Of a stretch of 64,000 nt of DNA, positions 5,460-35,760 are shown piece after piece. The notes below the pieces were generated by a model. It ran no database searches and was not told the DNA's origin. It saw nothing but the letters and a program-made list of their open reading frames with translations. Location: the NCBI GenBank assembly GCA_024347235.1, contig AP025283.1, positions 186,001 to 250,000 of the forward strand, read 5' to 3'. The stretch comes from Aliamphritea spongicola (GTDB taxonomy: Bacteria > Pseudomonadota > Gammaproteobacteria > Pseudomonadales > Balneatricaceae). The first letter of the stretch is position 1. The number at the start of each line of letters is the position of its first letter. Made by a program: the position numbers and the translations under genes.

Positions 5460-7207
5460 CTACTGGCTCAGGGTCAGGCTGTTTTGTGGCTGGCTCTGAC
5501 TGCCGACAATCGGAATAACCGCAGTGATACGGGTGCCCCGGTCATGATTCTGGCGGACACTGAACGTGCCGCCCAGCGCCCGGACCCGCTCCCGCATACC
5601 GATCAGGCCGAAGCCGCTTTTAAACGCCTGGCTTTCCACATCAAACCCAACACCGTCATCGCTGATCAGCAGTTCCAGGCGGTCACCGCTGATATCACCG
5701 CGCTGGCCTTTGTCCAGCCGCTTTAATTCTATCCAGACGTTTTTAGCGTGGGCGTATTTGAGAATATTGCTGAATGCTTCCTGGGTCAGGCGAAACAGGG
5801 TGATGTTGTAATCTTCGGACATCTCATTCAGTGCCCCCGGAAATCCGTATGTAACTGAATGTTGTGCTCAGAAAACCGGTTGTTGGCAATACATTCCTGT
5901 AAGGCATCCATTAACCCCAGATCATCAAGTGCCGTGGGCCGCAGGGTGCGCATCAGGCCGTAGGTTACATCGTAAATGTTCTGTGCAATGGCATCGATTG
6001 AGTCTGCAGTCTGGTGAACAATGCTGTTTTCTTCAGGGTGTATGCGTTTAAGGATTTTGGCATCGGTGCGGATCGCGGTCAGCGACTGGCCAAGTTCATC
6101 ATGCAGTTCCCGGGATAAACTGCGCCGCTCTTTTCCTGAACCGCCAGAACCTGATGAGTCAGACGGCGGTTTTCTATCAGCTGATCACGTAATTCCTGGG
6201 TACGCATATGAATGCGCAGCTCCAGTTGCTGACGTTCTTTTTCAGTTTTTCATACAACTGCGCATGCTGGCTGGCGGATCTGACCCGCTGGCGCAGGAAG
6301 GCAAGCAGCAGGGCATAGCCACCGGCTGAACAGAATAAGATTGCCAGTAACAGCCCGGGGTTGAGGTCCTGCAGGCTGACCTTCTGAGTGATATTAAGTT
6401 TAAAGGACTGGCCGAAACGGTTAATTGTCCGGGTATCCTTCAGTGCTGGCAGCAGATCCGTTCCCAGCCCTGTGTTCTCGGTGGCAGTACGCTCATCCAG
6501 AACAATGTTATGTTCGCTGATGATCTGCGCCTGGGCACCTTCATTCATAAAGTTTGCATTGGGCAGCAGGCTGGCAATGTTGACAATGATTGAGGCGATA
6601 TAGAGGTTTTGCGCGTTCGGCGCCGCATTACGGTCGTAAAATGCGAGGAACAGAGCGTAAACCTGCGAGGTGTTTTCGCCTCTGAACGGCGCGGAGGATA
6701 CTGGCTGGTGGTAACGCTGGGCAAAACTCAGGGTTTCGCTGAGGGCTGGATCATCTTCCAGATTATGTCCCATGAGATAACGGGTGTCGGCTGTCAGTGG
6801 CTCGATAAAGGTCAGCGGGAAGTTAGTGTTGGCCAGTACTTCCTGGCTCAGATCCGGCTGGCCAAACAGGGGTTCGAACGGGCTGGCAGCAACGTGTGCC
6901 GGCGGTGGAGACGCTGCCTGTTGCTGAATCTGAAAGCGCATAATCTGCGGATAACGTTTGTGCATTTCATTCGCATAGCTGCGGATGGTGACAAAGTCCC
7001 GTGGGTTAGCGCTGACCAGCGCGGTGAAGTTCTGCAGCAGAATTTCGTTAATGTAGGTTTTTCGTAGACAGAGGAATAGACGTACTGAGTATTATTATTC
7101 AGCCGTTTTTGCAGCAGGGAATAACTCGACCTGACGGACAGTCCGAGCATTAAAACCGTGATGCTGATCCAGATCGCGGTCACTAGCGGAAACTGCGGTT
7201 TTGACAT
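5460..7207 (-). CDS. NarX-type sensor histidine kinase with CHASE-like periplasmic domain (four frame breaks)
   Basis: Corrected length is 583 residues. There is a TM helix at residues about 10-28, a large extracytoplasmic domain with CHASE-like features (to about 300), a second TM helix ('GLLLAILFCSAGGYALLLAFL'), a short coiled coil, then a HisKA_3 dimerisation/phosphoacceptor domain with 'SRELHDELGQSL' and a HATPase_c domain ('TQEAFSNILKYAHA', 'ISDDGVGFD', 'GFGLIGMRERV'). Such kinases phosphorylate LuxR/NarL-type response regulators. No such regulator is adjacent, so the kinase is an orphan here. Bases are missing near 7063 (A-run), 6241 (A-run), 6133 and 5836 (G-run). It is convergent with the DUF748 gene. 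Confidence 0.88.
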
Positions 7208-7361
7208 ATGTCTGATCTATCCATGAGTACAGGGACGAACCCTGACAATTACCTTTGCGGCGCAGACTGTTACTCCTGAAAAACATCTTTGCTGGCTGCG
7301 GTTTGCGCATCTGTGCGCGATGTTGCTGATACAAAGTCTAACCATTCTGAGGGTGGAAAAC

Positions 7362-7387
7362 AAAAAGGCACCCTAAGGTGCCTTTTT
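7362..7387 (-). terminator. Intrinsic terminator of sodB
   Basis: A perfect 11-bp stem (362-372 with 377-387 in the 7300s) has a 4-base loop and T/A-runs on both arms, 25 bases after the sodB stop codon. Confidence 0.9.
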
Positions 7388-7411
7388 CAGTGTGTTTGCA
7401 GGGTATGCAGA

Positions 7412-7996
7412 TTAGCCAGCCAGGTTCTGGTTGGCGAAGTCCCAGTTTACCAGCGCCCAGAAGGCTTTCAGGTAATCAGGACGTACATTGCGGAAATCGA
7501 TGTAGTAAGCGTGTTCCCAAAGGTCAACAGTCAGCAGGGCAGTCTGACCGCTGGTCATTGGCGTGCCAGCGTTGCTGGTGTTAACGATTTCCAGAGAACC
7601 GTCAGCGTTTTTAACCAGCCAGGTCCAGCTTGAACCGAAGTTGTTAACAGCTTTGTCGTTGAACTCTTCCTGGAATGCAGCGAAAGAACCCCATTTAGCG
7701 TTGATTGCATCAGCAATTGCGCCAGTAGGCTCGCCACCACCGTTTGGAGACAGGCTGTTCCAGTAGAAAGTGTGGTTCCAGATCTGCGCTGCGTTGTTGA
7801 AAACACCGCCGGCTGGTGCAGAAGTGATGATCTCTTCCAGAGACTTACCTTCAAACTCAGAACCTGGCACCAGGCCGTTCAGTTTTACAACGTAAGTGTT
7901 GTGGTGTTTGCCGTGGTGGAAGTCCAGAGTTTCAGAAGAAATGTGTGGTTCCAGGGCGTCTTTGGCGTATGGCAGGGCCGGTAATTCAAAGCTCAT
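7412..7996 (-). CDS. sodB: Iron superoxide dismutase
   Basis: An intact 194-residue cytoplasmic enzyme that dismutates superoxide to oxygen and hydrogen peroxide. Metal ligands are visible: His in 'LDFHHGKHH', His in '[10 protein letters not shown]', and Asp and His in 'VDLWEHAYY'. The '[14 protein letters not shown]' block with Gln is the Fe-type signature, as opposed to Mn-type enzymes. The gene is monocistronic by appearance: its own terminator follows, and a 207-base spacer precedes it. Confidence 0.97.
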
Positions 7997-8203: not shown

Positions 8204-9220
8204 TTAATCGACATTCACCAGCTCGGCAATTTTTAACAACTGAATCGGTGGGTACAGCTCTAGCTGGCGGGCCACCTGCATATTGATAAAAATGGAGTAG
8301 CGATTAAGGGAGGCGATGGGTAACTGCCCTGGCTGCTCACCTTTAAAGAGCACTTTCTCGGCCTGATTGGCTGCCAGCCGTCCCACATTGTAGTAACGGT
8401 TAGCAACTGCAATCAGACCATCAGAGCGGGTTACCATCACATCGTAGGCGCTGGCGACCGGTAAACCATGGCTGTTAGCGGCCTGAGTGAATGCGTCGCG
8501 GTGCTGGCGGTTATAGGAACTGGAACCTACATACACCGCATCGGCACCGGCGGATTTCAGCTCTGCCATAATGCTGTCCAGCTGATCTGGCAGCGGTTGG
8601 CCGTCGGGGCCCAGTTCATAGGTCCGGCTGAGCAGTTCGAAATTCATCTCTTTCGCCAGACTTTCCAGCTTGCGGGTATTCAGCACGGAATTAGCTTCAT
8701 TGCCGGCGTAAATAACACCGATGCGCTTGGCGTCCAGATAATCCTGCAGCACGCTTAGCTGTACCTGTTCCGGTACCCGGTTGCGGATACCGGTGACCAG
8801 TGGCCGGCCGCTGTCCGTATAGGATTTAATAATGCCGGCGCCCACCGGGTCAGCGACAATCATAAACAGCAGGGGAATCCCTTGCAGATATTGCTGTGCA
8901 TCCGCCCCGTTGACCGGACCAATAATGGCTTTGGATACGCTGGTGCCCCAGGTGACCACCAGGTCCGGCTGCAGCTGTCGGGCTTCTTCTATAAAGCCGG
9001 GCAGGCTGGCTTTGTTTTTAGCGGCATCGCGGATGGTCAGTTCCACCGGGAGGCGGTTATCCGCGATGTACTGTTTGAAACCTTCGCAGGCTTCTTCACA
9101 GCCCCGCCAGACCACCATATATACCTGCGCCGGGTTAGCGGCAGTGAAGGCTTCGGCTGCACTCAGCGTTGTACTGATCAGCAACGTCAGGGCGATGCAA
9201 AAGCGTCTGATTATGCGCAT
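8204..9220 (-). CDS. ABC-type substrate-binding protein (ABC_sub_bind family)
   Basis: An intact 338-residue protein with an N-terminal signal peptide ('CIALTLLISTTLSAAEA', cleaved near residue 22). The rest matches the ABC_sub_bind (TrpX-like/DUF534) family of periplasmic binding proteins: 'QPDLVVTWGTSVSKAI', 'PLLFMIVADPVGAGI', 'RIGVIYAGNEANSV' and a C-terminal 'AANQAEKVLFKGEQPGQLPI'. The ATG at 9220 has a perfect AGGAGG at the right distance and overlaps the end of the upstream transporter gene by 10 bases, so the two are translationally coupled. There is no ABC permease or ATPase gene nearby. I infer that it delivers a ligand to the sensor domains or the MFS carrier of this operon; the ligand is unknown. 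Confidence 0.85.
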   Translation of the reverse strand: MRIIRRFCIALTLLISTTLSAAEAFTAANPAQVYMVVWRGCEEACEGFKQYIADNRLPVELTIRDAAKNKASLPGFIEEARQLQPDLVVTWGTSVSKAIIGPVNGADAQQYLQGIPLLFMIVADPVGAGIIKSYTDSGRPLVTGIRNRVPEQVQLSVLQDYLDAKRIGVIYAGNEANSVLNTRKLESLAKEMNFELLSRTYELGPDGQPLPDQLDSIMAELKSAGADAVYVGSSSYNRQHRDAFTQAANSHGLPVASAYDVMVTRSDGLIAVANRYYNVGRLAANQAEKVLFKGEQPGQLPIASLNRYSIFINMQVARQLELYPPIQLLKIAELVNVD

Positions 9221-11346
9221 GCTTTGGCCTCCTGCGGCGCATCCGCCGGAAATAAACCCCGGTAAAGCAGCCGATGCCGATGATGCCCACACCGATAATG
9301 GCCATCGCGGCACCGTAGTCGTAGAACACCAGCAGAGCGGCAACCAGTAACGGGCCGATAACACTGCCGATCCGCTCACAGGTGCGCAGCACGCCCAGCA
9401 CGGTGGTACGGCCAACATCCGGGGTATATTCAGCCGCTTCCAGTGCGGCGGCAATCAGTGGTGCCTTGATAATGGCGTGCGCCATACCCATCAGGATGAC
9501 TGAAATCAGAACGGTCAGAACATCCGCATCGCCGTTGAGTAACAGTAAGACGGCACCGGAAAGCACGGTGCCGAACACCACCAGGTCAATCATGTGTTTG
9601 CTGCGGTCGGCAATGTGCGAAGCGGTTGGCCCCAGGAAGATAATAATCAGCGCATAGATCATCATGATCCGGCCAATTTCTGCCTGAGTAGCGTCCAGGG
9701 TAATCAGATACACCGGGACGAAGTAATAGAGGAAACCGGTGAGAATAATTTTTGCCGGAATTGCACAGAACAGAATGATGCCGACAAAACGGTAGTTGCG
9801 AATCAGGGCTTTCGGGCCACGGGCCTGCTCCGGTGTCGCCGCTGCTTTGTCTGTGTTAGCCGGTTTTTCGCTGCAACCCACTTCTGAACACAGCATCACC
9901 CAGGCCAGAGCGCCCGCGACCAGCGCCAGCATGGCTGCCAGAACAAAGACGGGCTGGTAGCCAATCCGGTCGGCGATGATACCGCCCAGTGCGGTACCGC
10001 ACATGGAAGCTGTCATCAGTACACCCACAAATACCGCCATGCCTTTGGCGCGGTTTTCTTTGGTCAGCAGGGCCGCCATATAGCCCTGACAGCTGATGGT
10101 AATTACCGCATAGCCTGCTGCAGTGACGCCCCGTCCGGCGATGATCGCCTCAGCACTGTTGGCAAAGGCGCAGATCAGATAACCGCTGATAGCCGGAATC
10201 AGGCCAAACATAAAGATCCGTTTGCAGCCGTAGCTGTCGGTCCAGCGGCCGGCAAAGGGGTAATGATGGCGATAACACCCATGAACACTGAAATTGGCAG
10301 GCCGATCATAATGTCCCGGCTGATCCAGCTGTTCGGTTGGTAATATTCCGCCACAAATAAGGGCATAAATGACTTTTGCAGCTCCTCCGCGAAGGAGAAT
10401 ACAAACAGTGGAATTCGTGCATCTATGATGCTGCCGCGGCTTTCGGTAAAGACTTTCTGCAGGCTGAAACGTTTCGCCAGCTGGCGCAGTTTCTCGACGG
10501 TGCCGGGCTCATCTTTCTGTTCAATGGCGCGGTCGTAAACCTGTTGGAAGTTGTTCTGGATGGCGCGCGAATCCTGATTCATCCGGTTAACAAAGAAACC
10601 GATAATGCCTTTTGCTGCTGGTTTTGCTGTACGGAAAAGTCACCTTCGGCCTGACGGGTAAGGAGCTTTTCTGAATGCTGTAACGGCCCGGATACATAGA
10701 ACATCACCAGAACCATCATCAGTTCAAACGACACCAGTAATACGGCGATCAGTACAATGGCCAGATCGAAGAAAACATTGGTCAGCTGGCTGCGGATATA
10801 GCCGTCATTGAGGCCGATATGTACCGAGCCGTAGCGGACCTCCTGCTGTGTCAGTGGCAGGTAGTAGCCTTCCATTGACTGAGCGTCACTGCCGGATACC
10901 AGCATGCGGAAAAAGTCAGCGGTGCCGCTGAGCAGGCTTTCCACCGGCGGGTTAACCGATTCAGTGGCGGTAAACAGGGTCTTATGGGAAGAGAGTGGCT
11001 GTACCAGCTGACTGATATCACCGCCCTGATAGACGATGTCCCCTGCGGTATTACTCACGGCAATATAGGTCAGCTCAGAATACTTCTCGCTCAGGTCTTC
11101 CAGGTACTCATCCAACCCGTTGATCTGACCGAACGGAATACCGACCCCGACCGCCAGACGCACATCGTCCTGAACCTCTTCAGCGATCAGATTAGCCTTT
11201 TGCAGCAGTTGCGGCTTGAGGGCCATGTTGAATTCGGTGAGGGCATAAACCGCACTGATCAGTGACGCCAGAAAGGTACTTATCAGCGTAATAATAAACA
11301 GCCGGCGGTTAACGAACGTTGCCAGCCCCTGGGTGGTATTGCTCAT
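9211..11346 (-). CDS. MFS transporter with N-terminal periplasmic sensor and HAMP-like region (three frame breaks)
   Basis: Corrected length is 712 residues, nearly twice a plain MFS carrier. Residues about 15-37 form a TM helix; 40-185 are periplasmic (sensor-like, with 'SELTYIAVSNTAGDIVYQGG' as in Cache/PAS-like folds); a second TM near 195-220 is followed by a HAMP-like stretch ('SGPLQHSEKLLTRQAEGD') and a helical linker. About twelve TM segments of an MFS carrier follow (from about 325), with 'GRGVTAAGYAVI' and 'GTALGGIIADRIGYQPVF'. Breaks lie near 10625, 10257 and 9262. With the last corrected (a G-run), the frame ends at 9211 overlapping the next gene's start. The start overlaps the upstream stop (ATGA). 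The substrate is unknown. The layout suggests transport gated by a periplasmic signal. Confidence 0.8.
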
Positions 11347-12126
11347 TTGTGTTCAGCTCCGGCAGATGGACTGACCAGTTGGCTGAGTTCCTGCTCGACA
11401 CCGGATTTTATTTTTCCCGCTGTTCCATCTGGCGGGCAAACTGATAGGAAAGCGAATCGGTTTTCATATTATCCGGTTGTGGCGGAGCATGTTTATCCCG
11501 CTGGGCGTGTAACAGGTGGAAGATCGCGTTGACTTCGCCGAAGCCAAGCCGTACCGCGAGAAATATGAACACGGCAAACACCAGAAATACTGCCAGCGTC
11601 ATCATCAGCAGCCGGTCATTCACCCGTAAAATATCGGCAGCGTAGCGGGATTTATCGTAATCGATGATGATGCTGCCGGTCAGCCGCCGGTGGCATCAAA
11701 CAGCTGCAGGCCGGTATACAGTGCGTGTTCTTCATCCAGTCGCCAGGCGGCTTCTTCGCTGAACAGTGCCCGGCGGATCAGAGGGCTGTCCGGTGTTGCG
11801 CTCAGGGTCCCGGATTCGCTGGAAAACAGTGGCTTGCCATGGCGATCAACAACATGAATAGCCCGTATCTGCGGATCCCGGTGTTTTTCCCGGATCAGCA
11901 AATCACTGAGGTTGTTCATCTCCTGCAGGGGCAGGCCGAGTTGCTCCGCCTTGATTACGGAACGTTCAATGGAGGCTGTGACCACTTCAAGCTTGGAAGA
12001 GACTACCGCAGACATCAGGCCGGAGAACTTGATGGTGTTCATCAGCAATAACAGCGCCAGGACACTGATCAGGATGGCCCAGATGGTGGCGATCAGCTTT
12101 AGATGAACCTCAAGAAATACACGCAT
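11343..12126 (-). CDS. Two-TM periplasmic sensor protein (two frame breaks)
   Basis: Corrected length is 261 residues. An N-terminal TM helix (residues about 9-31, 'LIATIWAILISVLALLLLM') is followed by a periplasmic domain (about 32-170, with 'IRAIHVVDRHGKPLFSSESG', resembling a small Cache-type sensor), a second TM helix ('LLMMTLAVFLVFAVFIFLAV') and a short cytoplasmic tail. No kinase, cyclase or methyl-acceptor output domain is visible. It is the first gene of the three-gene minus-strand operon and looks like a paralogue of the sensor half of the next gene, so the two could form a heteromeric receptor. Breaks near 11684 and 11413; after correction its stop overlaps the next start as ATGA. 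Confidence 0.7.
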
Positions 12127-12492
12127 TAATTACAGATCCGCAGAAGTTGCCCCGAAATAAGGCGGTACAGGGTTAGCCATTATTCAAAATATGTCAAAAA
12201 TGTCGGCAAATATATCACTATTACCCAAAGTGAGGAATAATCGTCCGGTCTGGGGTTATGCCTCAGGTCAGTAAATACGGGGGCATTGTGTTGTGGTGCA
12301 ACAGAATCCACGGTTTTTGTCGTTCACAGGCAAAATTATCCGGTAATTCTTTCATGCTGTTTTCAGCCAGAACTGCAAAATGCATTCTCACAATATGACA
12401 GAGACACGGGGCCGGCCCGCTTCCGGTGGTATGAAAAACACGTGCCACGGTTTACTATCTCGTCAATCATTGAAGATGAAGGGGAACACACA
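12127..12492. other. Divergent intergenic region upstream of vgrG
   Basis: A 366-base spacer separates the sensor/MFS operon from the T6SS cluster. It is AT-rich near 12180-12240 and must hold both promoters. I see no sigma-54 -24/-12 element, clear operator or RNA gene. Confidence 0.45.
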
Positions 12493-14508
12493 ATGGCTGT
12501 GTTAAGCGATCCGCAAAGCAGTAATCTGGTTGTCACGGACCATCAAGGTAACGGTTATGCTGCAACACAGCTGAAATGCCACAACGGCCTTTCAGTGCTG
12601 AGCAAGGTTGAAGCGGATCTGCTGAGCCTGGAAACCGACCCTTCAGCCTGGCTGGGAGAAGTGTTCACCTGTGAACTGTTCCAGCACCCGGGCAGTGACC
12701 GGACTGCGTTACGTACCTTTAAGGGGTGGTCACCGCTGTTGAATTACTGAACACTGATAACCAGCGGCAGCCGGGTTTCCGGATTGTGATGGAGCCCTGG
12801 CTGGCGTTACTCGCCTACAGCAGCAAGCGCCGGGTATTCCAGAACATGACTACCCAGGCAATTGTCAGTGAGATCTTCGATGAACTGGGCTTTAAGGGCC
12901 AGTATAAAATTGATTCGATGCCTTCCGCGCAACGTGAATACTGCCTGCAACTTGATGAAACCGATCTGGCCTTTGTCCGTCGCCTGCTGGCGGAAGAAGG
13001 GTGCATTTCTATTTCGGTAAAGATGACGACTCCAATACCCTGATTCTGCATGATGCCGCCAAGCCTTTTGATAAGGGCGGTAAAGTGACGCTGGATGATG
13101 CCAGCGCCCCCAGTGGTGATTACGACGTGGTGACCAACTGGTCCCCGGCGTTCAGATTTCATAACAGCAGTATCAAGCTGGGCAATTACGACTATAACCA
13201 GAGCAAACTGGTCAGCAGCAGCGCCAAAAGCAGCAAGTTTAAGCTGGCCGGTAACAGCAAAATTACCGAATCACGTTACCCGGCAGCCAGTGTGACCGGG
13301 CAGATGGATGATCTGAGCAGTGCGCTGGTGGAATGCTACCGGGCCCAGCGGGATACCGAATATCAGCTGGTGAAGGGTAATACGCTTAATACGGACCTGT
13401 GCAGCGGTACCTATCTGCAACTGGCAGCCCATAAAGACAGTGCTCAGCTGGATGATTATCTGCTGGTGAATGTTACCTATCTGGTCAGCGTTGAACGCAA
13501 TAACAGCCTGAGTTTACAGGCGGATTTCAGCTGTGTACCTCAGGGTCATCTGCATTACCCGCAGGGTTTGCCGAAGCCTCAGGTGCAGGGCTTACAGAGT
13601 GCAGTGGTCGCCGGTAAAGAAGACGGTGAGCCTGCCTGTGATGATCAGGGCCGTATCCGGATACAGTTCCACTGGGATGAAGACGCCGAAGGGGATAAAA
13701 CCAGTTGCTGGGTACGGGTTGCCCAGGCAATGGCGGGCAGCAGCTATGGCTGCCAGTTTATTCCCGGGCCGGGCAGGAAGTGATTATCAGCTTTCTGAAC
13801 GGTGATCCAGACCAGCCGGTGGTGACCGCCAGCCTGTTTAACAGCCAGAACAAACCGCCTTATCCGCAGGCGAATACCACCCAGTCGGGCATCAAAACCC
13901 AGCTAAAGGGTGAGTCCAATGAACTGCGCTTTGATGATAAAGCGGATAACGAACAGCTCTACCTGCATGCGGCCAAAGACATGCTGGTGGAAGTACTGAA
14001 TAACGCGGAAGAAAAAGTCACCGCAGAAAAGAAAGTCAGCGTTGAAAAAGATATCAGCGTCACCGGCGAAGCCAACTATAGCCTGACCACTAAAGAGAAT
14101 ATCCAGCTGGAATCAGACAAGGAATATTCCCTGCAGGCAAAAGATGCCATCAGCGGGACGTCCAAGAAAATTGAATTCAGTGCCGATGATACCCTGGAAC
14201 TGGTGGTGGGCAGCAGCAAGATTTCCATGAGCAGCTCCAAGATTGAAATCAAGAGCCCGGAAATCAGCATCAGCGGTGACTCCAAGGTAAGCATTAAAAC
14301 CGCACAGCTGGCGGCGGAAGGTTCGGCATCGGTGGATATTAAATCATCCGCCAACATGAATCTGAAAGCCGGGGCGCAGCTGAATGCAGAAGGTCTGATG
14401 GCCACGCTGAAAGGTTCAGTGTCAGCGGAAGTAAACGGTGCCGCAGAGGCGAAATTAACAGCATCAGGAATGGCGACCGTGAAAGGCGGCATCGTAATGG
14501 TTAACTGA
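12493..14508 (+). CDS. vgrG: T6SS spike protein VgrG/TssI (three frame breaks)
   Basis: Corrected length is 672 residues. The gp27-like part spans roughly residues 1-380 ('FTCELFQHPG', 'ILHDAAKPFDKGG', 'SRYPAASVTGQ'), then a gp5-OB-like part with 'RIRIQFHWDEDAEGD' and 'SCWVRVAQAMAGSSYGCQFIPR', then a long beta-helical C-terminus of short repeats ('KISMSSSKIEIKSPEISISG'). No toxin domain follows, so it is a structural VgrG that carries cargo through PAAR or adaptors. It trimerises at the tip of the Hcp tube. Breaks: near 12725, 13007 and 13773. It is first in a vgrG-DUF6931-PAAR module; the next gene starts two bases after its stop. Confidence 0.95.
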
Positions 14509-15573: not shown

Positions 15574-16951
15574 ATGGAAAACTTATCAGCGCCAGTCTCG
15601 GAAAGTTCGGCCGTTGGTGAATACCTGAAAGGTAACCGGGCGGTGTACCGGGCATTAAGAAATACCTTTAATCAGGCCCAGTCTGCGTATCGCCAGCTGA
15701 TGGAATCGCCGGAAGCGATGGTGGATAACCAGCTGCAGAACCTCAATGGTGACTGCTGGCAGGCCCTTGCTGATCAGTGTCAGGAAACCTTGCTTAACAC
15801 ATCGAAAGATGTGGAAATCCTTGCTGGCTGACCACCGCCAGAATCTTCAGCCGTACCCCGCTGGCCAGTCTTGATGAAGCCTTACAGGCCTTTGTTGAGG
15901 TGGTGACCGAGTATGGCGATCAGATGCACCCCGTCCTCCGGTAGAAAAGCTTAAAGCCGATGATGAAGCCGGTCAGGCTGCTGAGTGGACAGAATTCCGT
16001 ACCCGGCCGCTGATTCAGCTGCTCGGTGAGAGTGACAACAGTGGCTTGCTCTTTATGCCACTGCAGAATATCCCGCTGATCGGTGATATTACCTACGCCC
16101 GTTATTTCAGTGCCGAACGTGCCGGCAACCTGGCTGAACTGAAAGCAGAAGCCCTGCAACTGCTGGCTTCTGAGCGCAGTGCAGTGATCGATACCCTGCA
16201 TACACTGGCAAGCTGTAAAACCCGGGTGGAAACCCTGCGGGACCTGTTTGCCGAACAGTGTCAGGCAGTGGGTATGCAGCCGGTTAACTTTGGCTTCCTG
16301 TTACGTTTATTCGATCAGTTACTGAATGCGTTACGTTTCATGCTGGAAGAACAGCTGACCCCGTGGCCGCTGGACCCGGTAGCAGAAGCACCGGCAGAAA
16401 CGGTAGCTGAAACTGGGGTTGAAACGCTGGCTGAAGCAGCTCCGCAACCGGCCGCTGAGGCACCTGTTGCAGCAGCACAGCCTGCAGTAAGCAGTGCGCC
16501 GGCTCAGCCCGCGGCGGCTGCGCCTGCGGTAGCACCGGTGGCGCTGGCAGATGTAGCCGGTGCGATTCAGTCCCGTGATCAGGCGTTCCAGAACCTGCGT
16601 CAGATTGCAGATTATTTCCGTCAGACCGAACCCCACAGCCCTGTGTACATGCTGATTGAGCGGGCGATTCGCTGGGGCTATCTGCCGTTACCTGAATTAC
16701 TGGCAGAAATGGTTGGGGATAATGCCTCCGTCATGGCCCGGATCGAAACCATGGCCGGGTTAGAAAACAACGAAAGAATTGACATACCGGGAGGCGGTAC
16801 TGGTGTTGCGCCAGTGAGTCCGGTAAATGCCGTCACGCAGGTGAACTTACCTGCTGAGGACAACAGTCAGGCTGTAGCGAGTGAACCGACGCCGGCAGAA
16901 CAACCGGCAGAACAGACAACGACGCAGAATATTTCCAGTTTTGAATGGTAA
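15574..16951 (+). CDS. tssA: T6SS baseplate/cap protein TssA (two frame breaks)
   Basis: Corrected length is 459 residues. The N-terminal ImpA_N-type region (about 1-200) includes 'PLIQLLGESDNSGLLFMPLQ' and 'GDITYARYFSAE'. A helical middle is followed by an Ala/Pro/Glu-rich low-complexity linker (about residues 265-325) and a conserved C-terminal helical domain with 'QAFQNLRQIADYFRQTEPHS' and 'RAIRWGYLPLPELLAEM'. TssA primes tube and sheath polymerisation and links to the baseplate or distal end. Breaks near 15828 and 15931. The start has an AAGGA site; the 193-base AT-rich spacer before it probably carries a promoter for the structural operon. Confidence 0.93.
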
Positions 16952-17555: not shown

Positions 17556-18062
17556 GTGGCCTTAAATTCACAACATAAACGCGTAAGCAAAAACCGTGTC
17601 AGCATCACCTATGATGTTGAAACAAACGGAGCGGTCGAAACCAAGGAATTGCCTTTGGTTGTTGGAGTGATGGGTGACTTTTCAGCCCACAAAGAAGACC
17701 GCGAAGAAGTTGAAGACCGTAGCTTTATCCAGGTGGATAAAGATAACTTCGACAGTGTCATGAAACGGGTAGGTCCGGAGCTGAAACTGAAAGTGGATAA
17801 CACCCTGGCGGATGATGACAGCCAGATCGGTGTTGAACTGAAGTTCGATTCCATGAAGAGCTTTGAGCCGGACGCTATCGTCAGCCAGGTGGATGCCCTG
17901 CAGAAACTGGCCGATACCCGTGCTCAGCTGAAGACCTTGCTGTCTAAAGCTGACCGTTCCCGTGACCTGGAAAAACTGCTGAAAGAAGTACTGCAAAGTG
18001 CCGACACTATTAATGCGCTGTCATCTGAACTGGGCATTGAAGCGAAAGGAGACGACGCATGA
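17556..18062 (+). CDS. tssB: T6SS contractile sheath small subunit TssB
   Basis: An intact 168-residue protein (family about 160-180). It starts at GTG 17556 after a TTGAGGG ribosome-binding sequence. The family signature 'RVSITYDVETNGAVETKELPLVVGVMGDFS' (in two conserved strands) and 'PDAIVSQVDALQKLADTRAQL' are present. TssB and TssC interlock into the cytoplasmic sheath that contracts to push the Hcp tube. Its stop overlaps the tssC start (ATGA), so the two are made in step. Confidence 0.97.
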   Translation: MALNSQHKRVSKNRVSITYDVETNGAVETKELPLVVGVMGDFSAHKEDREEVEDRSFIQVDKDNFDSVMKRVGPELKLKVDNTLADDDSQIGVELKFDSMKSFEPDAIVSQVDALQKLADTRAQLKTLLSKADRSRDLEKLLKEVLQSADTINALSSELGIEAKGDDA

Positions 18063-19542
18063 GTGAAGAACAGTTAAGCTCTGGCGCCGCAGGCGCAGCA
18101 GCCGCCGAAGAAGGCAGCTTTCTGGACCGTGCCATTGCGGCCACGACCCAGACCCCTGAAGATACCACCAAAGAACTGTTTTCCGTACTGGCAGAACAGG
18201 CCCTGAGCGGCACCGTGGTATGGGATAAGAACCTGACCCTGACTATCGAAAAAGCCATCGGCGAAATCGATAAGCAGATGTCCCGTCAGCTGTCTGCCAT
18301 CATGCAGCAGGACGATTTCCAGCAGCTGGAAGGCTCCTGGCGTGGTCTGAACAAGCTGGTGAAAGAAAGTGAACTGGGCCAGAGCCTGAAAATCCGCATG
18401 GTGGATTTCCAGAAAGAAGAGCTGCTGGATCAGTTTGAAGATGCCCCTGCGGTTGACCGCAGCCCGTTATTCGAAGCCCTGTATCAGCGTGAGTTCGGTA
18501 CCGCCGGTGGTGAGCCTTACGGCCTGCTGATCGGTGACTACAACTTCTCTCACAAAGATGAAGATGTTGCCCTGCTGCGCTACATGGGTGAAACCGCTGC
18601 TGCCAGCCATGCACCGTTCATCGCGGCTGCGAATCCGGAAATGTTCGAATTCGACAGCTTCGAAACCTTTGACGAAGGCAAGCCTGTTGCCGCAGGTTTT
18701 GACTCCCGGCCTATGCTGCGTGGAATGCATTCCGTGCCAGCGATGATGCCCGCTATGTTGCCCTGACCATGCCACGCACACTGGCCCGTCTGCCGTACGG
18801 CGACAAAGGTCTGAGCACCAACGCTTTCAACTATGAAGAGCTGGGTACAGATGCCGTGGGTAACCCGCGTCCGACCGATAACAGCCAGCTGGTCTGGTCT
18901 AACGCTGCCTATGACATGGGTCTGAAAATGACTCAGGCGCACACAGCCTTTGGCTGGTGCACCGCGATCCGTGGTATGGACAACGGCGGTAAGGTAGAAA
19001 ACCTGCCTAACCTGACCTATCAGTCTGATGCCGGCGATCTGCAGCAGCAGTGCCCGATTGAAGTTAACCTGACCGATGAGCGCGAAAAAGAGCTCAGCGA
19101 TCTGGGCTTCCTGCCACTGGTTCACTACAAGAACACTAACTACGGTGTCTTCATCGGTGGCCAGACGACGCAGAAACCTAAGACTTACACCGATCCGGAT
19201 GCGACCGGTAACGCGGCGATTTCTGCCCGTCTGCCGTACATCATGGCAAGCAGCCGCATTGCACATTACCTGAAGGTAATGGGCCGCGACATGCTGGGTT
19301 CCAACCTGGAAGCCAACGACGTGCAGCGTGACCTGCAAACCTGGATTGACCAGTACACTAACTCCGGTGCGGTAGGCAATGCAGAGCGTTCCAAGACGCC
19401 ACTATGTGAATCCCGTATCGAAGTGGTTGAACAGCCAGGCCGTCCGGGTGCTTACTCGGCAGTTGCCCACCTGCGCCCATGGCTGCAGCTGGAAGAACTG
19501 ACGACCTCTGTTCGTATGGTAACCAAGATCCCGGGCGGCTGA
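18059..19542 (+). CDS. tssC: T6SS contractile sheath large subunit TssC (one frame break)
   Basis: Corrected length is 494 residues, as usual for TssC. The conserved core includes 'LEGSWRGLNKLVKESELG', 'YGLLIGDYNFSH', 'MPRTLARLPYG' and 'ASSRIAHYLKVMGRDMLGS', with 'SKTPLCESRIEVVEQPG' towards the end. It pairs with TssB in the sheath and carries the ClpV-accessible side. One C is missing near 18707, which splits it into two apparent ORFs. It is followed by a GC-rich hairpin and then a second, diverged TssC-type gene. Confidence 0.97.
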
Positions 19543-19609: not shown

Positions 19610-21031
19610 ATGTTTCAAAATGACTGGCAAGACGCATTCAACATACTCGATCCGCAACAGGACGATTACCTGAGTCAGGCACTGACACTTATCGGTCAGT
19701 GGGATGACGCATGTCTGCAAAATACCGCCAGTTTAAAGTCCGGGCTTAACCGCCTGATTGCTGAACTAGATCAGCAACTCTCCACCCAGCTTGCTGAAGT
19801 GATGCACCATGAGGCGTTCTCCGAACTGGAAGCCCGCTGGCGCAACCTGCAAAGCCTGGTGACCCTGCCGGTCAATTATCAGCGTGTGGAAGTGAAGCTG
19901 CTGGATATCAGCTGGCGCGAAACCGCCCGTGATATCAACAGTGCTGCCAGCCTGAAGCACAGCCGTCTGTATAACAAAATCAGCAATAAAGAATTAAATA
20001 CGCTGGGCGGTAAGCCGTTCGGCGCAATCGTGATTGATCATCAGGTCGCCATGGAAATGGACTTCGATGATGATTACGACGACCTCTATACCCTGGAATT
20101 GCTGGGGCAGTTAGGGGCAATCTGTCTGTGTCCGTTTTTGCTGGCACCGGCGGAGGACTTTTTGGTTATCCGGGGCGGACTGGTTATCGGATACCCAGCG
20201 GATCGGCAAGATCCTTGATGGCCCTGACTATGTGGGCTGGCAACAGCTGCGCAACAGCGTCGGTGCGCGCTTTGTGGGGCTGGTATTGCCTCAGGTGAAG
20301 CTGCGTGACGCCTATGAAAACCATCCCATCGGGTTTGTGTTTGATGAGCCAGAACGGGATAAACCAGGCCTGTGGGGCAATGCGGCGTTTGCCTTTGCCA
20401 GTGTCATTATCCGTGAATATAACCGGATAAACTGGTTCGGGTTTATGAAGTCCCGCTGGCAGGACAAATTTCAGGGTTCACTGCTGAATTTGCCCCTAAT
20501 GCCATGCAGAATTCGCCACTGAACAAGCCGGTGACAGACGTCCGGCTGTTTGGCCGTTTAGCCAGTTTTTACAGTGAACAGGGCTTTGTGCCGCTGGCCC
20601 AGAGCAGCCTGACCGACAAGTTTTATTTTTACGGCAACAACTCGGTGTGGAAATCCCGCACCAGTGATGCGGACAAGGTGATCTGCCAGTTGCAGACCAC
20701 TTTAATGGTCTGCCGGATTGCCCATTATCTGAAAGTACAGATCCGCGGCATGATCGGTAGCTTCCGCACCGCCGCTGAATGTGAGCTGTTCCTCAGCCAG
20801 TGGCTGGATAACTACTGCAGTAATATTTCTGATGGCGATGAAGCCACGCTGGCCCGCTACCCGTTACGGAAGTCCGACCTGAAGATCAAAGAAGTGGACG
20901 GCAGCCAGGGACGTTTCAGCTGTGAGGTGGTGTTACAGCCCCAGTATCAGTTCGATAACTTCTTTGGCGAAGTGGTGCTGGCCACCGATCTGGGTGAAGG
21001 TGCTGACCTGCAGTCCGGAGTACTGGCATGA
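19610..21031 (+). CDS. Second TssC-family protein, ImpD-like (three frame breaks)
   Basis: Corrected length is 474 residues. It clearly belongs to the TssC superfamily: 'FSELEARWRNLQSLV', 'LGGKPFGAIVIDHQ', 'LVLPQVKLRDAYENHPIGF', 'VCRIAHYLKVQIRGMIGS' and 'YPLRKSDLKIKEVDG' align in order with TssC. It is more diverged than the true sheath subunit, and like Rhizobium ImpD it follows an ordinary TssC and precedes tssE. Its role is not settled; a baseplate-proximal or regulatory sheath-like subunit is possible. Breaks are near 20163 (T-run), 20172 (G-run) and 20482. It overlaps tssE by four bases. Confidence 0.85.
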
Positions 21032-24178: not shown

Positions 24179-26780
<2,602 letters not shown>

Positions 26781-26896
26781 GGACAACGGAGAGTCTCTGT
26801 TTGCATAACAATTGCCTGAAATGGCACCTATGTGCCGGTTTCATAAGCAGTTTGCGCGTCCCGGGCCTTGCCAGAGATGCGCAATGCAAACACAAT

Positions 26897-27621
26897 ATGT
26901 CTATGCGTAAAAACCGTCTACAGCCCTGTTTACCGCTCTGCTCAGTGTCTTTGTGATGCTGCTGCCGGCGGCTGCCCAGGCGCAGGAGCGGATCAGGCTG
27001 GCTACCCAGAGCTGGCCGCCGTTCCAGATGGTTGAAGAAGGGCAGTTAAAGGGTCAGGCCATCGAGCGGGTACAGTGTGCCCTGCGGGAAATGGGGCAGC
27101 CTTATGAGCTGCACCTGATGCGCTGGGACCGGGCCCAGCTACTGGTGGAAACCAATCAGTTTAACGGTTTCTTTTCCGGTTCACCGAACAGTTCAAGAGC
27201 CCGTTACGCGGTGCCTTCTGCCCCGGTGATTTCGGTACCGCTGAGCTGGTATCTGGCGCCGAATGTCGAGCTGGATGTCACCAGTGAAGAGGCGAAAGAT
27301 CAGGCCCGTTACGGGGCTAAATTTAATACCTCTAAATGGCTGTTTCTGGCAAAGAACGGCTATAACGTGGTGAAAAACCACAGGATGCAGAAGCACTGTT
27401 ACGGATGCTGCGTAACGGTGATCTGGACGTGGCGCTGGAATATGAAGACGTCTTCGAACTGGCCATGGAAAATCAGGGTGTATCCCCAGCGGTTTAAGAA
27501 GATTCCCTATAAAGTCCGGGATCTTAGCGTGCATTTTTCAAAAACGTTTTTGCACCAGCGGCCAAACTTTCTCAATGCCTTCAACGCTGCTCTGGTTCAG
27601 TGTATAAAGAGTGAATCATGA
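26897..27621 (+). CDS. Periplasmic amino-acid-type substrate-binding protein inside the T6SS cluster (three frame breaks)
   Basis: Corrected length is about 241 residues, matching SBP_bac_3-type periplasmic proteins. A signal peptide ('FTALLSVFVMLLPAAAQA') is followed by 'ERIRLATQSWPPFQMVEEG' and 'GQAIERVQCALREMGQPYEL', the usual first lobe; 'FNGFFSGSPNSSRARYAVPS' follows. Bases are missing near 26920 and in the A-run near 27378, and one extra C is likely near 27488. No permease or ATPase accompanies it. Its place between clpV and the FHA gene, with the stop overlapping the tagH start by four bases, shows it is part of the T6SS operon. A sensing or ligand-binding role for activation is possible but unproven. 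Confidence 0.75.
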
Positions 27622-28556
27622 CGATAAGCATCCAACTGGTTGAAGTGCCAGAAAACGAGAAGGTCCCCAGCCGGCAAGTGATTCTGCCCGCCAACGGCGG
27701 CACGATTGGCCGTGCTTATGACTGTACTCTGGTGTTACCGGATTTTGATCGCAAACTGTCCCGAAAACATCTCCGCATTGACCTTTCACCCCAGGGCAGT
27801 TTTCAGGTGACGGATCTGAGCGTCAACGGTTCTACCCTGAACCAGCAGCCGCTGAACCGCGGCATCCCTCAGCAGATCAGCGACGGCGATATTCTTAAAC
27901 TGGGTGATTACACCCTGTTACTCAGCGATATGGTGCCTTTCCTGACCGACACGGTAGAGGAAGAGGTTGTGGTGACTGAAGAACGCCGTGAGCCGGTGTT
28001 TTCAGTTGATAACCTGCAGATTGATGAATTCAGCACCCCGCTGGATGACCTTCACAGCAATGAAATTCAGGCCCCGGAAGAGGCCGGTTTCTCTGCGGAT
28101 AATGTCATGGCGGATGATCAGTTCGGCCATGATCCGTTTGATGACACCGTGGAACTGAAAACCCCGGAACCAAAGCTGACTGCTGATCCGTTCCGTACGG
28201 CAGAAGTGGTTACCCTTGAAGGCGAAGATCTCGAACCGGTTGGCGATACCGCACAGTTAAGCCGCAGTATCCAGCAGCTGCAGCGCAGCCTGCAACAACA
28301 GCAACAGATGCAGATGGGCATGTATGGGCAGGACAAACTGCTGGAATGCCTGGGCGCAACGCTGGACCGTTTTCTGGAAGAATTTGAGCCCGGGCAGCTG
28401 GAAGGCATGTTCGACGAATATACCTCCGGCTGGGGCAACCGGGACAAGAAATACTGGCGGCTATACAAGAAACAGTTCAGCCGTCGCCGCGACCGTAATG
28501 AGTTCCATCAGCAGTTTACCGCTCTGTTTATGGAAGAACTGCGGAGGAAGAAATAA
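27618..28556 (+). CDS. tagH: T6SS-associated FHA-domain protein (TagH/Fha)
   Basis: An intact 312-residue cytoplasmic protein. The FHA domain (about residues 25-105) shows 'GGTIGRAYDCTLVLPD', 'LSRKHLRI' and 'DLSVNGSTLN', the phosphothreonine-binding loops. An acidic, low-complexity middle (about 110-200) rich in Glu/Asp/Thr/Pro, with possible phosphorylation sites, leads to a C-terminal helical domain ('LGATLDRFLEEFEPGQLEGMF') seen in T6SS Fha proteins. It probably docks phosphorylated partners and gates assembly, together with the kinase-like gene at 35029. It overlaps the gene before it (ATGA) and tssJ by one base (TAATG). Confidence 0.92.
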   Translation: MTISIQLVEVPENEKVPSRQVILPANGGTIGRAYDCTLVLPDFDRKLSRKHLRIDLSPQGSFQVTDLSVNGSTLNQQPLNRGIPQQISDGDILKLGDYTLLLSDMVPFLTDTVEEEVVVTEERREPVFSVDNLQIDEFSTPLDDLHSNEIQAPEEAGFSADNVMADDQFGHDPFDDTVELKTPEPKLTADPFRTAEVVTLEGEDLEPVGDTAQLSRSIQQLQRSLQQQQQMQMGMYGQDKLLECLGATLDRFLEEFEPGQLEGMFDEYTSGWGNRDKKYWRLYKKQFSRRRDRNEFHQQFTALFMEELRRKK

Positions 28557-31594: not shown

Positions 31595-34500
31595 GTGGCG
31601 AAAAATCCCGCCCGTTGTGGCCGTTTATTCTGGTAACTGTACTGATCGGCGTATGCCTGTTCGGCGGTGCTTACCTGTTGCAGTTCTGGACCTTTGCCAG
31701 CCCGGTTGAAATGACTGTAAGCGGCCTGACGGCCCTGTTGCTGGCGGTGATGGCCGGAGGCTTAAGCTGGAAGTTCTGGGGGCAGGCTGAGGCACCTGAA
31801 GAAGATGCTGAACAGCGCCAGCGGAAGATAAACGTAACTATCTGCAGCAACAGACTGATCTCCATTTGCAGGCCTGCTGGCAGCATGTACGGCAGTTGCG
31901 GGGCTCCCTTATACGCTGCCCTGGTATTTCATGCTTAACCGTGAGCCGGGTGATGCTGAGCTGTTACAGCATATGGGTTTTGACAAAATTAAGCTGGAAT
32001 CGACCACCCAGCCATTGCCGGTAGCTTTCTGGCTGAATGAAAGCGCCATCCTGATCGAGTTGCACGGTGATGCGGATGCCGACAGCGTGGAGTTTTGCCA
32101 GCAACTACTGGTTAAGCATCTGGCCAAACAGCGGCCACGGCAGGGGCGAACGGCATTCTGCTGAGCGTACCGGTTCAGGATGTCATGAACCGCAGCAGTG
32201 ATCAGCTGGAAGCGCTGGCGAAACAGCAGCGGGGCTTTATTAAAACCCTGAATCAGGCGTTTGGTGTCAGCCTGCCGGTGTATTCTCTGTTCACTGAAGT
32301 GTCCGCCGTCAGTGATTTCTGTCAGTTCTTTGCCAGTTTTGACGAGCAACAGCTGGAGCAGTCTTTCGGGGCAATGCTGCCGGCGGATAAACACGGCTTT
32401 GATCCCCAGTGGTTTGATTCATCTTTTGATGCCCTGCAGGAACAGTTGTCCCTTAACAGTACCCCGGCACTGAGCGCGCAGCTGGCGGAGTCTTACCGCA
32501 GTGCTGTGATTGCCGGGCCTCATCAGTTTGGCCTGCTGAAGGCGGATCTGGCCAGCTATTTCCGGCAGTTGTTCCTGGATAATCAGTATCAGACTGAAGC
32601 ACTGCAATTCCGGGGTATTTCTTTGTGAATGCCCACGGAGAAGGTTTGCCGACCGATCGTCTGACCATGCATCTGGCGTCCCGGCTGGGCTACAGCACCC
32701 TGTTGCCTGCGGGTAATGATGTGGTGCCTCATCAGTTATTTGCCCGGCAGTTAATGCAGCAGAACATCTTGCCTGAAAAGTCTCTGGTGGGGGTTAACCG
32801 CTATAAAGAAAGCAGCTACAGCCTGCTTAAGCTGGTGTTCTCGGTAGGATTGCTGGCGGTGCTGGGTGCCTGTCTGTGGCTGTTTAAGGCTAATTACGAT
32901 TACTACACGGCGATGGAACAGGAAGCGGCACAGCAGCTAACCGCTTACAAACGGCAACTGATCAACAATAAGGATCAGAGTGATGAGCTGGCGGTACCGA
33001 TCGCCAACCTGACCGAACTGCGTAAGATCCGGGCTATATTCCACCGGCCGGAGCCCTGGTATGCGATGTCGTTCCTGCCAAATCCGAGCATTAAGAAGGC
33101 CGTGGACGGTGCCTATGATGACGCCCTCAAAGATCAGCTGTTAATCGAGTTGAGGGATTACCTGCTGCGGGATCTGTACGTATATAACCGTCTGGATGAC
33201 AAGGTTAAGACCCTTGAGTTGTATAACCTGCAGAAGCAGTTGTTTAATGCCCGGCGCACTGATGTGAACAGCCTGAGCAATTACTATCTGAATTCCCTGC
33301 AGGAAGAGGGGGTGACCGACAGCCGCCTGATTAATCAGTTCAAGCTGCTGCTGAGTGATTTGTTTGCCCTTAAAGTGGCGCCGCCGAAAGACAATCAGGA
33401 ACTGCTGGAACTGGTGGATCAGTCACTGGCGACCCAGGATCTGGGGACCTGCTGTATACCCAGTTGCTGCAGCAACCGCACCTCAGCCAGAAACTGAATC
33501 TGCTGGATAAGCTGGGACAGAACTACGATGACGTGTTTACCTTTAAGGATGACAGCGTCTATAACGTGCCTTATATGTTCACCCGTGAAGGCTTTCTGGA
33601 AATCATGGGCAGCTCCGGTTTTGAGTTCGCCAATGACTGGGTTGCAGACTATAAGGACGTTGTCGGTGATATCAGCGGCAATCAGGATTTCAGTCAGATA
33701 AACCGTAAGCTGCGCCTGCGTTATACCCGGGATTATGTGGAACACTGGCAGCGTTTTGCCAGCGCCCTTGAATGGCAGCCGACCACCGGCTGGAGTGAAA
33801 TTAGCCAGCAACTGATATCCGCTACTGATCCCGCCAGCTCGCCGTTGCTCAGAGTCTATGAACTGCTGGATTATCACACCAGTCTGGAGGCGGCAGTAGA
33901 GGGAGTATTAAAAGCTCAGGAAGCCGCGAAAGCTAAGCCGGCAGATGCTGACGCTGGTGCACCTGCAGACAATCCGTTAGCACCTGCAGACTTACAGACT
34001 CCTGCCAAACATCTGGGCATTACCCAGGCAGCGGAAACCATTGCCCGGCCGTTTGCCCCGTATAAACGTCTGATACAACCGGATGATAAGGGCGTTAGCC
34101 CGCTGGGGTTTGCCACTCAGCATATGACCGCCACGCTGGAATGGTTACAGCAGGGTGTCCAGAGCAAGCAACGTGGTAATAAGTTCCTTGGCCAACTGAA
34201 CGGTGAAGTGAATAACCCGCTGCAGCGTCAGTTGGATATCGCGGTTAAATACAACGGTGTGGTGCGGGATATGCTGGAGCATACCGCCCGGCAGCTGAAT
34301 GATCTGGCAATGCTGGAAGTACAAGGGTTCCTGCAGCAGCGTTGGCAGGCAGAAGTACTGAATGACTATCTGCAGAGTGTCGCGCCTTATTACCCGGTGA
34401 ATCCTTTATCCGATCAGGATATTCCGCTGGCAACCTTTAAAGAATTCTTTGCGGCGGATGGCCGGATCAGTGACTTTGCCAAGCGCTATGAGCCGTATTT

Positions 34501-35025
34501 TACCGATAAAGAAAACATCTATCCGGGCTTACCGAGCTTTTGCAGGATCAGGATATCACCATTAACCGTCAGTTCTGGCTGATGCTTGGCCGGCTGAAGC
34601 AGGTGCAGGCGGTTATGTTTAACAACGGGGTACCGGGGTTTAATTTCTCTGTGCGGATTGATGCTATGAGCAGCGGTGTAACGGAGTTCAACCTGCGCAG
34701 TGATAAGCCACTGTATACCTACCGTAATGGCCCGGCACTGTGGGCGAAGATGAACTGGCCGGTGTCGGAAAACAGCAGCCGTACCCTGAGCCTGCAACTG
34801 AAAGGCAGCACGAAAGTGCTCAGTGAAGCCAGTTTCCCGGGTATTTGGAGCTGGTTCCGCATGGTGGATCAGCTACAGGGTGAATCCCTGCCGGATGGCA
34901 GCACCAACAGCCTGACCTGGCAGGACGGCCAGGAGTCTGCCAGCCTGCTGGCCCGGACAGAAAGCGGTGAGAATCCGCTGTATGTCGGTTTCTTTGATCA
35001 GCTGCAGTTACCTGAACGGCTGTAA
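31595..35025 (+). CDS. tssM: T6SS inner-membrane protein TssM, degenerate P-loop (seven frame breaks)
   Basis: Corrected length is 1145 residues. Two N-terminal TM helices ('FILVTVLIGVCLFGGAYLL' and 'LTALLLAVMAGGLSW') precede the cytoplasmic domain, TM3 lies near residue 420 ('LVFSVGLLAVLGACLWLF'), and a long periplasmic part ends in the TssJ-binding region ('FSVRIDAMSSGVTEFNL', 'PGIWSWFRMVDQ'). Where other TssM have a Walker A loop after 'LPWY', this protein reads 'FMLNREPGDAELL' without the GK[ST], so ATP binding is doubtful. GTG 31595 has an AGGAGG site. Breaks are near 31604, 31822, 31907, 32147, 32622, 33448 and 34537. Confidence 0.94.
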
Positions 35026-35028
35026 GCC

Positions 35029-35760
35029 TTGACCCACGAGCTCTTTACTCAGCTTGGCTACCGGGCGTCTGACGCCCGGCAGCTGAGTCAGTGGGTTTGG
35101 GTTGCCTGGCATGCTGAGGCTTGTCGCTGGGATTGTCTGAAGCTCGCTGAGAGCGCTGAACACCGTTATGGCATCCGTCGTGAAGCCTACTGGCTTCAGC
35201 GGTTACAAAATGCTTCTTATAGCAGCTGTGCGGCGTATCGGGGGCATTATCAGCTGGGCGGTTATGAAGTCCTGATCACATCCCGGGTAAATGGCCAGCC
35301 TTTATCTGAAATGTTGCGCCAGGACATTGAATTTCATCCTGAATTCAGAAATAAACTGTACCTTTCACTGCAACAGCTTCACCGGCTGGGCATCTGCCAT
35401 GGTGATATAAAACCTGCCAACATTCTGTTGCTGGACGATGAGCCTGTACTGGTGGATTTTGCCAGTGCGGCTGAACCGGGAATTGCGGTTGCTGATTTGC
35501 CGTACCGCAGTTTCAGCCCGTCTTACAGTATGCCCGCTTTACAAAGGGGTGAAGGGGCGGTGGATATCCTCCATGATTGGTATGGATATCTGGTAATACT
35601 CAGTTTGGTGAATAACCGTACACTTCTGCAGCCCGAATGGTCAGACTCAGAAGCGTTAGTTAAAGCAGTGAATATTCTGTTGTCAGACAATGATGGTCTG
35701 ACAACCGCAGCCAGAGATTTTCTGGCGCAGCAAATACAGCGCCTGCCTGATTTCAGCTGA
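35029..35760 (+). CDS. Divergent Ser/Thr protein kinase-like protein of the T6SS cluster
   Basis: An intact 243-residue protein starting at TTG 35029, four bases after the tssM stop. The kinase catalytic loop is recognisable as 'HGDIKPANILLLDDE' (HGD in place of HRD, then DxxxxN), followed by 'VLVDFASA' in place of DFG. An ATP-binding lobe with a plausible lysine in 'WDCLKLAESAEHRYG' precedes it. It lacks the membrane segment and sensor domain of PpkA. With the FHA protein it could form a threonine-phosphorylation switch, but no PppA-type phosphatase is in the cluster. Aminoglycoside-phosphotransferase-like folds are an alternative. Confidence 0.7.
   Translation: MTHELFTQLGYRASDARQLSQWVWVAWHAEACRWDCLKLAESAEHRYGIRREAYWLQRLQNASYSSCAAYRGHYQLGGYEVLITSRVNGQPLSEMLRQDIEFHPEFRNKLYLSLQQLHRLGICHGDIKPANILLLDDEPVLVDFASAAEPGIAVADLPYRSFSPSYSMPALQRGEGAVDILHDWYGYLVILSLVNNRTLLQPEWSDSEALVKAVNILLSDNDGLTTAARDFLAQQIQRLPDFS

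Follow-up and report, generated by a model that had tools for sequence, protein, structure and literature searches.

A conserved proteobacterial module of a periplasmic binding protein, Cache-like sensors and a sensor-bearing MFS protein, and its linkage to type VI secretion genes

Introduction

What does a periplasmic substrate-binding protein (SBP) of an ATP-binding cassette (ABC) transporter family do next to a carrier of the major facilitator superfamily (MFS) that bears a sensor of its own? This question is raised by three genes in a 64,000-nucleotide stretch of Aliamphritea spongicola DNA (contig AP025283.1, positions 186,001 to 250,000; the window), which are transcribed in the order two-transmembrane (two-TM) sensor, sensor-MFS protein and ABC_sub_bind protein. 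A sequence-only reading had proposed that this triad could be either a secondary transporter fed by the binding protein and gated by a signal, or a receptor that uses a carrier for signalling. Here, we report that the triad is widely conserved and is linked in part of its range to genes for type VI secretion systems (T6SS). With belief and doubt evenly balanced, we propose that it is a receptor-gated carrier, i.e. a receptor read through a binding protein, whose output is the MFS carrier and which is used as a T6SS input.

Results

The triad in the window and in the same genus

The position, strand and content of the three genes had been read correctly from the letters, including the ABC_sub_bind (PF04392) and MFS_1 (PF07690) identities:

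8204..9220, minus strand: periplasmic SBP, ABC_sub_bind PF04392 (E 6e-25), 338 residues, intact; AlphaFold model with pLDDT 93.6; nearest solved folds 6hni/6hnj, 3lkv and 3lft
about 9222..11346, minus strand: sensor (TM-Cache-like-TM)-HAMP-like-MFS protein, split over three frames; located by tblastn with the protein of a same-genus genome (G001); MFS_1 at 1.7e-33 on the largest window piece
about 11346..12126, minus strand: stand-alone two-TM periplasmic sensor, split over three frames; located by tblastn; profile-profile match to the MFS-borne sensor

In tblastn with the G001 proteins, both membrane genes were found to be broken across three frames and, therefore, the 712 residues previously given for the sensor-MFS protein cannot be read from one frame of the window. 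That length does hold in same-genus relatives, which have an intact sensor (261 residues), sensor-MFS protein (712-713 residues) and SBP (338 residues) with overlapping gene ends; in three same-genus genomes, the open frames for the sensor-MFS protein span 715, 712 and 713 residues and the gene models 713, 712 and 713. Among the window genes between 456 and 55803 that were compared with G001 (at least 180 residues, at least half covered), 24 of 34 are frame-split, TssC and TssM among them. With this many genes split and a completeness rating of 78% for the window assembly, the breaks are likely to stem from assembly error; the assembly probably contains many indel errors and, given the fraction of broken genes, we do not favour that these genes are real pseudogenes.

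The module is widely conserved in Proteobacteria

Species genomes were scanned with a profile of eight sensor-MFS proteins together with one peptide pattern. The pattern was matched by 107 stretches, of which 90 encode relatives, and the counts below are based on the best 80 of these 90; duplicate records within the loci are L104/L145, L105/L150, L042/L171 and L039/L112. As the MFS protein was the seed of the scan, the counts measure how often the partners accompany a sensor-MFS protein. The hosts are Vibrio, Photobacterium, Marinomonas, Marinobacterium, Roseobacters, Pseudovibrio, Rhodospirillaceae, Chitinimonas, Massilia, Candidimonas, Desulfovibrio relatives and others.

A hit to the sensor profile and the MFS domain share one frame in 78/80 loci, the exceptions being L178, which is cut by a contig edge, and L187; moreover, at least 240 residues lie ahead of the MFS domain in 79/80. 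A chimera or frame artefact as the source of the fusion is thus ruled out, and the sensor is not a separate gene ending in a true stop, an outcome that the sequence-only reading had named as fatal to its idea. It had named likewise the possibility that homologues usually lie apart; an SBP gene is present in 75 of the 80 loci, in 66 of which it is located on the same strand at most 437 nucleotides (nt) downstream. It is immediately upstream in one (L143), convergent in two (L171, L172) and on the other strand at a distance of 1.5 to 1.9 kb in six. Two of the loci without it, L125 and L187, are on contigs that stop within about 230 nt. A separate upstream sensor gene is present in 57/80 loci, with a 4-nt overlap in 36. 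In total, the survey of gene neighbourhoods that had been suggested for conserved co-occurrence finds the triad in many proteobacterial genera, and we conclude that the module is real and widely conserved in Proteobacteria.

Several loci have variant layouts. In L143:6137-11995, two sensor-MFS genes flank a single SBP gene, and one stand-alone sensor gene precedes this set; in L162:10836-13116 and L164:11969-14114 tandem SBP genes follow a fused sensor-sensor-MFS gene. In L178, L182, L185, L186 and L188 (Desulfo-type and two alphaproteobacterial genomes), a divergent type of sensor-MFS protein is encoded ahead of a member of a protein family for which GCS2 was matched in the one member tested, and the SBP gene is on the opposite strand. 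A sensor-only profile (A4) gave many weak matches, most of which fell behind the second TM segment of other proteins; only those with an MFS domain in the same frame were kept (G099, G200, G530 and G441), and G250 and G083, in which the sensor matches are weaker, were added later.

Two homologous sensors and one MFS carrier

The stand-alone sensor is homologous to the MFS-borne sensor (profile-profile probability 97.5, E 7e-12). In nine loci, both sensors are joined to one MFS, and one such double-sensor-MFS protein of 911 residues was modelled at pLDDT 90.9. The order of helices and strands in the sensor model fits Cache, and the HAMP-like stretch that follows has a weak match (8e-4) to a kinase. 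MFS_1 is matched at 1.7e-41 on the intact same-genus sensor-MFS protein; the MFS part is predicted to form a complete MFS fold, and charged residues are conserved in it. The membrane subunit is thus of the MFS_1 family, and no TRAP or TTT membrane family is among the Pfam matches of this intact protein.

The binding protein has no TrpY-like permease beside it

The predicted fold of the SBP is closest to those listed above, of which 3lft is titled with L-Trp and 6hni binds tyrosine; the TrpX model of NCBIfam gives a score of 96.8, below its cut-off of 390. As the sequence-only reading had claimed for an ABC transporter in the window, a TrpY-like ABC permease is absent, in this case from all 80 triad loci. 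In control loci of other ABC_sub_bind genes in related genomes, a TrpY-like permease was present in 12/16 and an ATPase in 12/16; because these controls were hand-picked from 46 non-triad ABC_sub_bind matches and those of 380-418 residues, which are numerous in the window's genus, are under-represented among them, 12/16 is not a family-wide rate. An ATPase-type hit is present somewhere in 12/80 triad loci, and in L152 an ATPase-type frame of 618 residues is directly downstream of the SBP gene, without a permease. The three genus matches of 380-418 residues that were sampled (L202, L206 and L207) represent another kind of ABC_sub_bind gene, of about 380-400 residues, and have no adjoining TrpY-like permease.

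The module is linked to T6SS genes in part of its range

The divergent neighbours of the window triad form a T6SS cluster. At least two kinds of T6SS gene are present in the fetched stretch of 29/80 triad loci, and in 23 of these 29 the SBP gene stops at most 60 nt from the next T6SS gene on the same strand, which is VgrG in Vibrio, Photobacterium and Marinomonas and TssA in alphaproteobacteria; in the window's genus, the triad is instead divergent from VgrG. None of the 16 control ABC_sub_bind loci, for which the stretches are shorter, has T6SS genes. In a quick tree of the MFS part, in which some deep branches are weak and from which L106 (VgrG-like frames only) was left out, the T6SS label changes 8 times vs 25 in shuffles, and one clade holds 26 of the 31 T6SS-linked rows; L110, L146, L149, L161 and L176 are outside it.

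Within the window's genus, the triad is present in 4/17 genomes, and a T6SS with two VipB proteins is exclusive to the same four; it adjoins the triad in all three same-genus loci read, as in the window, and five other genomes have a single-VipB T6SS and no triad. The four genomes are probably close kin and, therefore, count as one event. Of the 293 genomes searched in the order, four (G000, G099, G083 and G041) encode a second VipB that is close (>600 bits, or split in the window's genome), and all four have an MFS and SBP module inside the cluster as well as an SBP_bac_3-like gene between the ClpV and FHA genes. The module of G083 and G041 is divergent, with an MFS protein of 834-851 residues, about 400 of which precede the carrier, and an SBP of 403-426 residues, and is placed after a kinase-like gene. 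Many other clusters have a second VipB that is more distant; the module is absent from the nine of them that were examined (257 to 336 bits), one of which is covered over 20 kb only. We conclude that there are two divergent module versions in one T6SS lineage, and that the module is probably tied to T6SS function in the window's lineage.

By Pfam on G001 orthologs, the cluster of the window encodes VgrG, ImpA/TssA, Hcp, VipA, VipB, a second VipB, TssF, TssG, a ClpV-type ATPase, an FHA protein, VasE/TssK, DotU/TssL, IcmF/TssM and a Pkinase-domain protein. Three provisional labels, 'DUF4123', 'TssA2' and 'TagF?', were replaced, as Pfam gives DUF6931, the second VipB and the Pkinase protein. The features, all on the plus strand, are as follows (E-values are for G001 orthologs):

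12442..14505, plus strand: VgrG-like spike (Phage_GPD, Phage_base_V; tblastn, Pfam on the G001 ortholog), first gene of the cluster, frame-broken
15574..16948, plus strand: TssA (ImpA_N; tblastn, Pfam on the G001 ortholog), frame-broken
18059..19536, plus strand: TssC sheath protein (VipB, PF05943), frame-broken
19610..21028, plus strand: second VipB-family sheath protein (VipB 8e-76), which we take to be ImpD-like; marker of this T6SS lineage, frame-broken
24226..26777, plus strand: T6SS ClpV-type ATPase (AAA_2, ClpB_D2-small), frame-broken
26801..27618, plus strand: second binding protein, SBP_bac_3 (8e-7), unrelated to the triad SBP, with a similar gene in the same place in G041, G083 and G099; frame-broken
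27618..28553, plus strand: FHA-domain protein, TagH-like (FHA 6.6e-14)
31597..35022, plus strand: TssM (IcmF; tblastn, Pfam on the G001 ortholog), frame-broken
35029..35757, plus strand: small kinase-like protein (Pkinase/APH; Pkinase 2.5e-9, above cut-off; tblastn) directly after TssM, a possible cytoplasmic relay to the FHA protein

Discussion

How could a binding protein, two sensors and a carrier work together? In the receptor-gated carrier that we propose, the soluble periplasmic SBP would capture a small molecule, and the loaded SBP would dock on and be read by the pair of Cache-like sensors, i.e. the stand-alone sensor and that of the MFS protein. The two sensors would jointly supply the four-helix input that the HAMP-like linker needs while the MFS stays single copy, and the linker would determine which conformation the MFS adopts; either transport or this conformation as such may be the output. 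The T6SS cluster of the window's lineage would use the module as its environmental input, with its own kinase-like and FHA proteins as the likely relay. We hold more tentatively, and somewhat below an even chance, the further claim that a HAMP-type linker here drives a transporter instead of an enzyme, that an SBP and an asymmetric Cache pair gate a single MFS, and that this device was recruited at least twice as a T6SS trigger. Because the triad is conserved, the paired sensors are homologous, a HAMP-like link is present in some members and a TrpY-like permease is absent, the comparative evidence favours the idea of a receptor or gated carrier put forward in the sequence-only reading, which had missed the T6SS, kinase-like, FHA and SpoIIE-type neighbours as well as the placement of the triad within T6SS operons of other families.

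Several observations weigh against this proposal. While ABC_sub_bind and MFS_1 were matched in the profile searches, and the sensor is fused to the carrier as had been read, HAMP (PF00672) was matched in 4/38 rows scanned and missed in most members. The dCache_1 matches, in 7/26 stand-alone sensors, are weak (E up to 0.1), and the one Cache score tabulated is 25.5 bits vs a cut-off of 45. Because the structure search was made with the whole model and was filled mostly with MFS entries, the sensor fold was hardly probed. The triad is not alone in having no permease since 4/16 control loci likewise lack it. Moreover, no T6SS core gene is present in the fetched stretch of 51/80 loci, some of them on short contigs and, thus, T6SS control cannot be the general function; the linkage in the main T6SS clade may also be one event.

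An SBP-dependent secondary transporter, in which the MFS takes over the ligand from the SBP and the Cache-like domains only provide a docking platform, has precedent in the TRAP and TTT systems and fits the frequent SBP gene, the missing TrpY-like permease and the complete MFS with its conserved charged residues. However, it leaves the HAMP-like link and the sensor pair unexplained, and the solved carriers nearest to the MFS part are efflux and vesicular amine carriers, a result that gives no hint of SBP-fed import; no SBP gene is in the locus at L166, L184 and L190. These last two points weigh against our own explanation as well. We consider it rather unlikely. That the MFS is a transceptor, i.e. 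a receptor that need no longer transport, on the model of UhpC, and that signals to a SpoIIE-type phosphatase or, in T6SS clusters, to kinase-like and FHA proteins, is also unlikely in our view. A kinase-like gene adjoins the SBP and MFS genes in G083 and G041 (the Pkinase domain is shown for the G001 relative), and relatives of a HAMP-SpoIIE-HATPase_c_2 protein are present in 10/86 loci (domains read in one member); yet no output partner common to all lineages was seen, and the carrier's charged residues are conserved. Finally, ordinary efflux or uptake genes could lie by chance in T6SS clusters, as a single insertion in the main T6SS clade and the many loci without T6SS linkage would allow, but the integration sites differ (ahead of VgrG, ahead of TssA or behind the kinase-like gene), and there are two divergent MFS types as well as the single cases L146, L149, L161 and L176. 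This we regard as very improbable.

The module resembles several known systems in part. It shares the ABC_sub_bind family and the nearest folds with TrpXYZ-type ABC importers but lacks their adjoining TrpY-like permease, and the TrpX score is under the cut-off. In TRAP and TTT systems, a binding protein serves a non-ABC carrier, as it might here; by contrast, the carrier of the triad is of the MFS_1 family and has a built-in sensor. LuxP-LuxQ and NspS-MbaA are receptors read via a binding protein, with a kinase or GGDEF-EAL as the output; like them, the triad has an SBP beside a membrane sensor with a periplasmic domain, whereas its output would be a transporter. UhpC is an MFS sensor that works with the kinase UhpB and is not known to have a periplasmic sensor, HAMP domain or SBP; the triad would share with UhpC and other transceptors an MFS protein in a sensing role, and differs in its periplasmic sensors, its SBP and a putative HAMP-like region. 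The TagQRST-PpkA-Fha pathway of T6SS includes the TagST ABC transporter, and both are envelope modules in a T6SS cluster with kinase-like and FHA proteins; the triad has an SBP and an MFS protein in place of TagST.

No title or abstract describing the system was found in the literature searched, in which such genes are named only as T6SS neighbours; subscription papers were thinly covered, and this absence is weak. In a Vibrio T6SS in which tssC is duplicated, Table 5 of PMC10385127 places three entries between tssH and the FHA gene, namely an MFS transporter, an ABC transporter protein and a transporter protein; the passages around it give no function for these transporter genes.

If the receptor-gated carrier is real, the classic linker that passes signals from periplasm to cytoplasm is also able to govern a secondary transporter, and receptor signalling and carrier gating would be joined in a tractable one-chain system. 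Moreover, the module would offer a candidate answer to the question of what many T6SSs sense outside the cell, with a ligand-binding protein in the cluster that lends itself to testing.

Other neighbours of the triad

The sequence-only reading saw no output kinase, a claim that must be qualified. A HisKA_3 histidine kinase gene is located two genes downstream of the window SBP gene, and the T6SS cluster encodes the Pkinase-domain protein; each is at most a candidate output of the triad. Among the loci searched, the HisKA_3 kinase is near the triad in this genus only. At 5463-7996 of the window, it lies with an Fe/Mn superoxide dismutase gene on the same strand downstream of the SBP gene; that this kinase (P0006) and SodB are parts of the system is unsupported, as L112 alone among the 80 loci has them close to the triad. 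A Cache-cyclase family is present in four loci. ABC_sub_bind genes of other subfamilies lie beside genes for Cache-HAMP proteins with a histidine kinase (L107) or GGDEF-EAL (L108) as their last part. An input pair of this kind can thus be followed by an enzyme or, in the triad, by a carrier.
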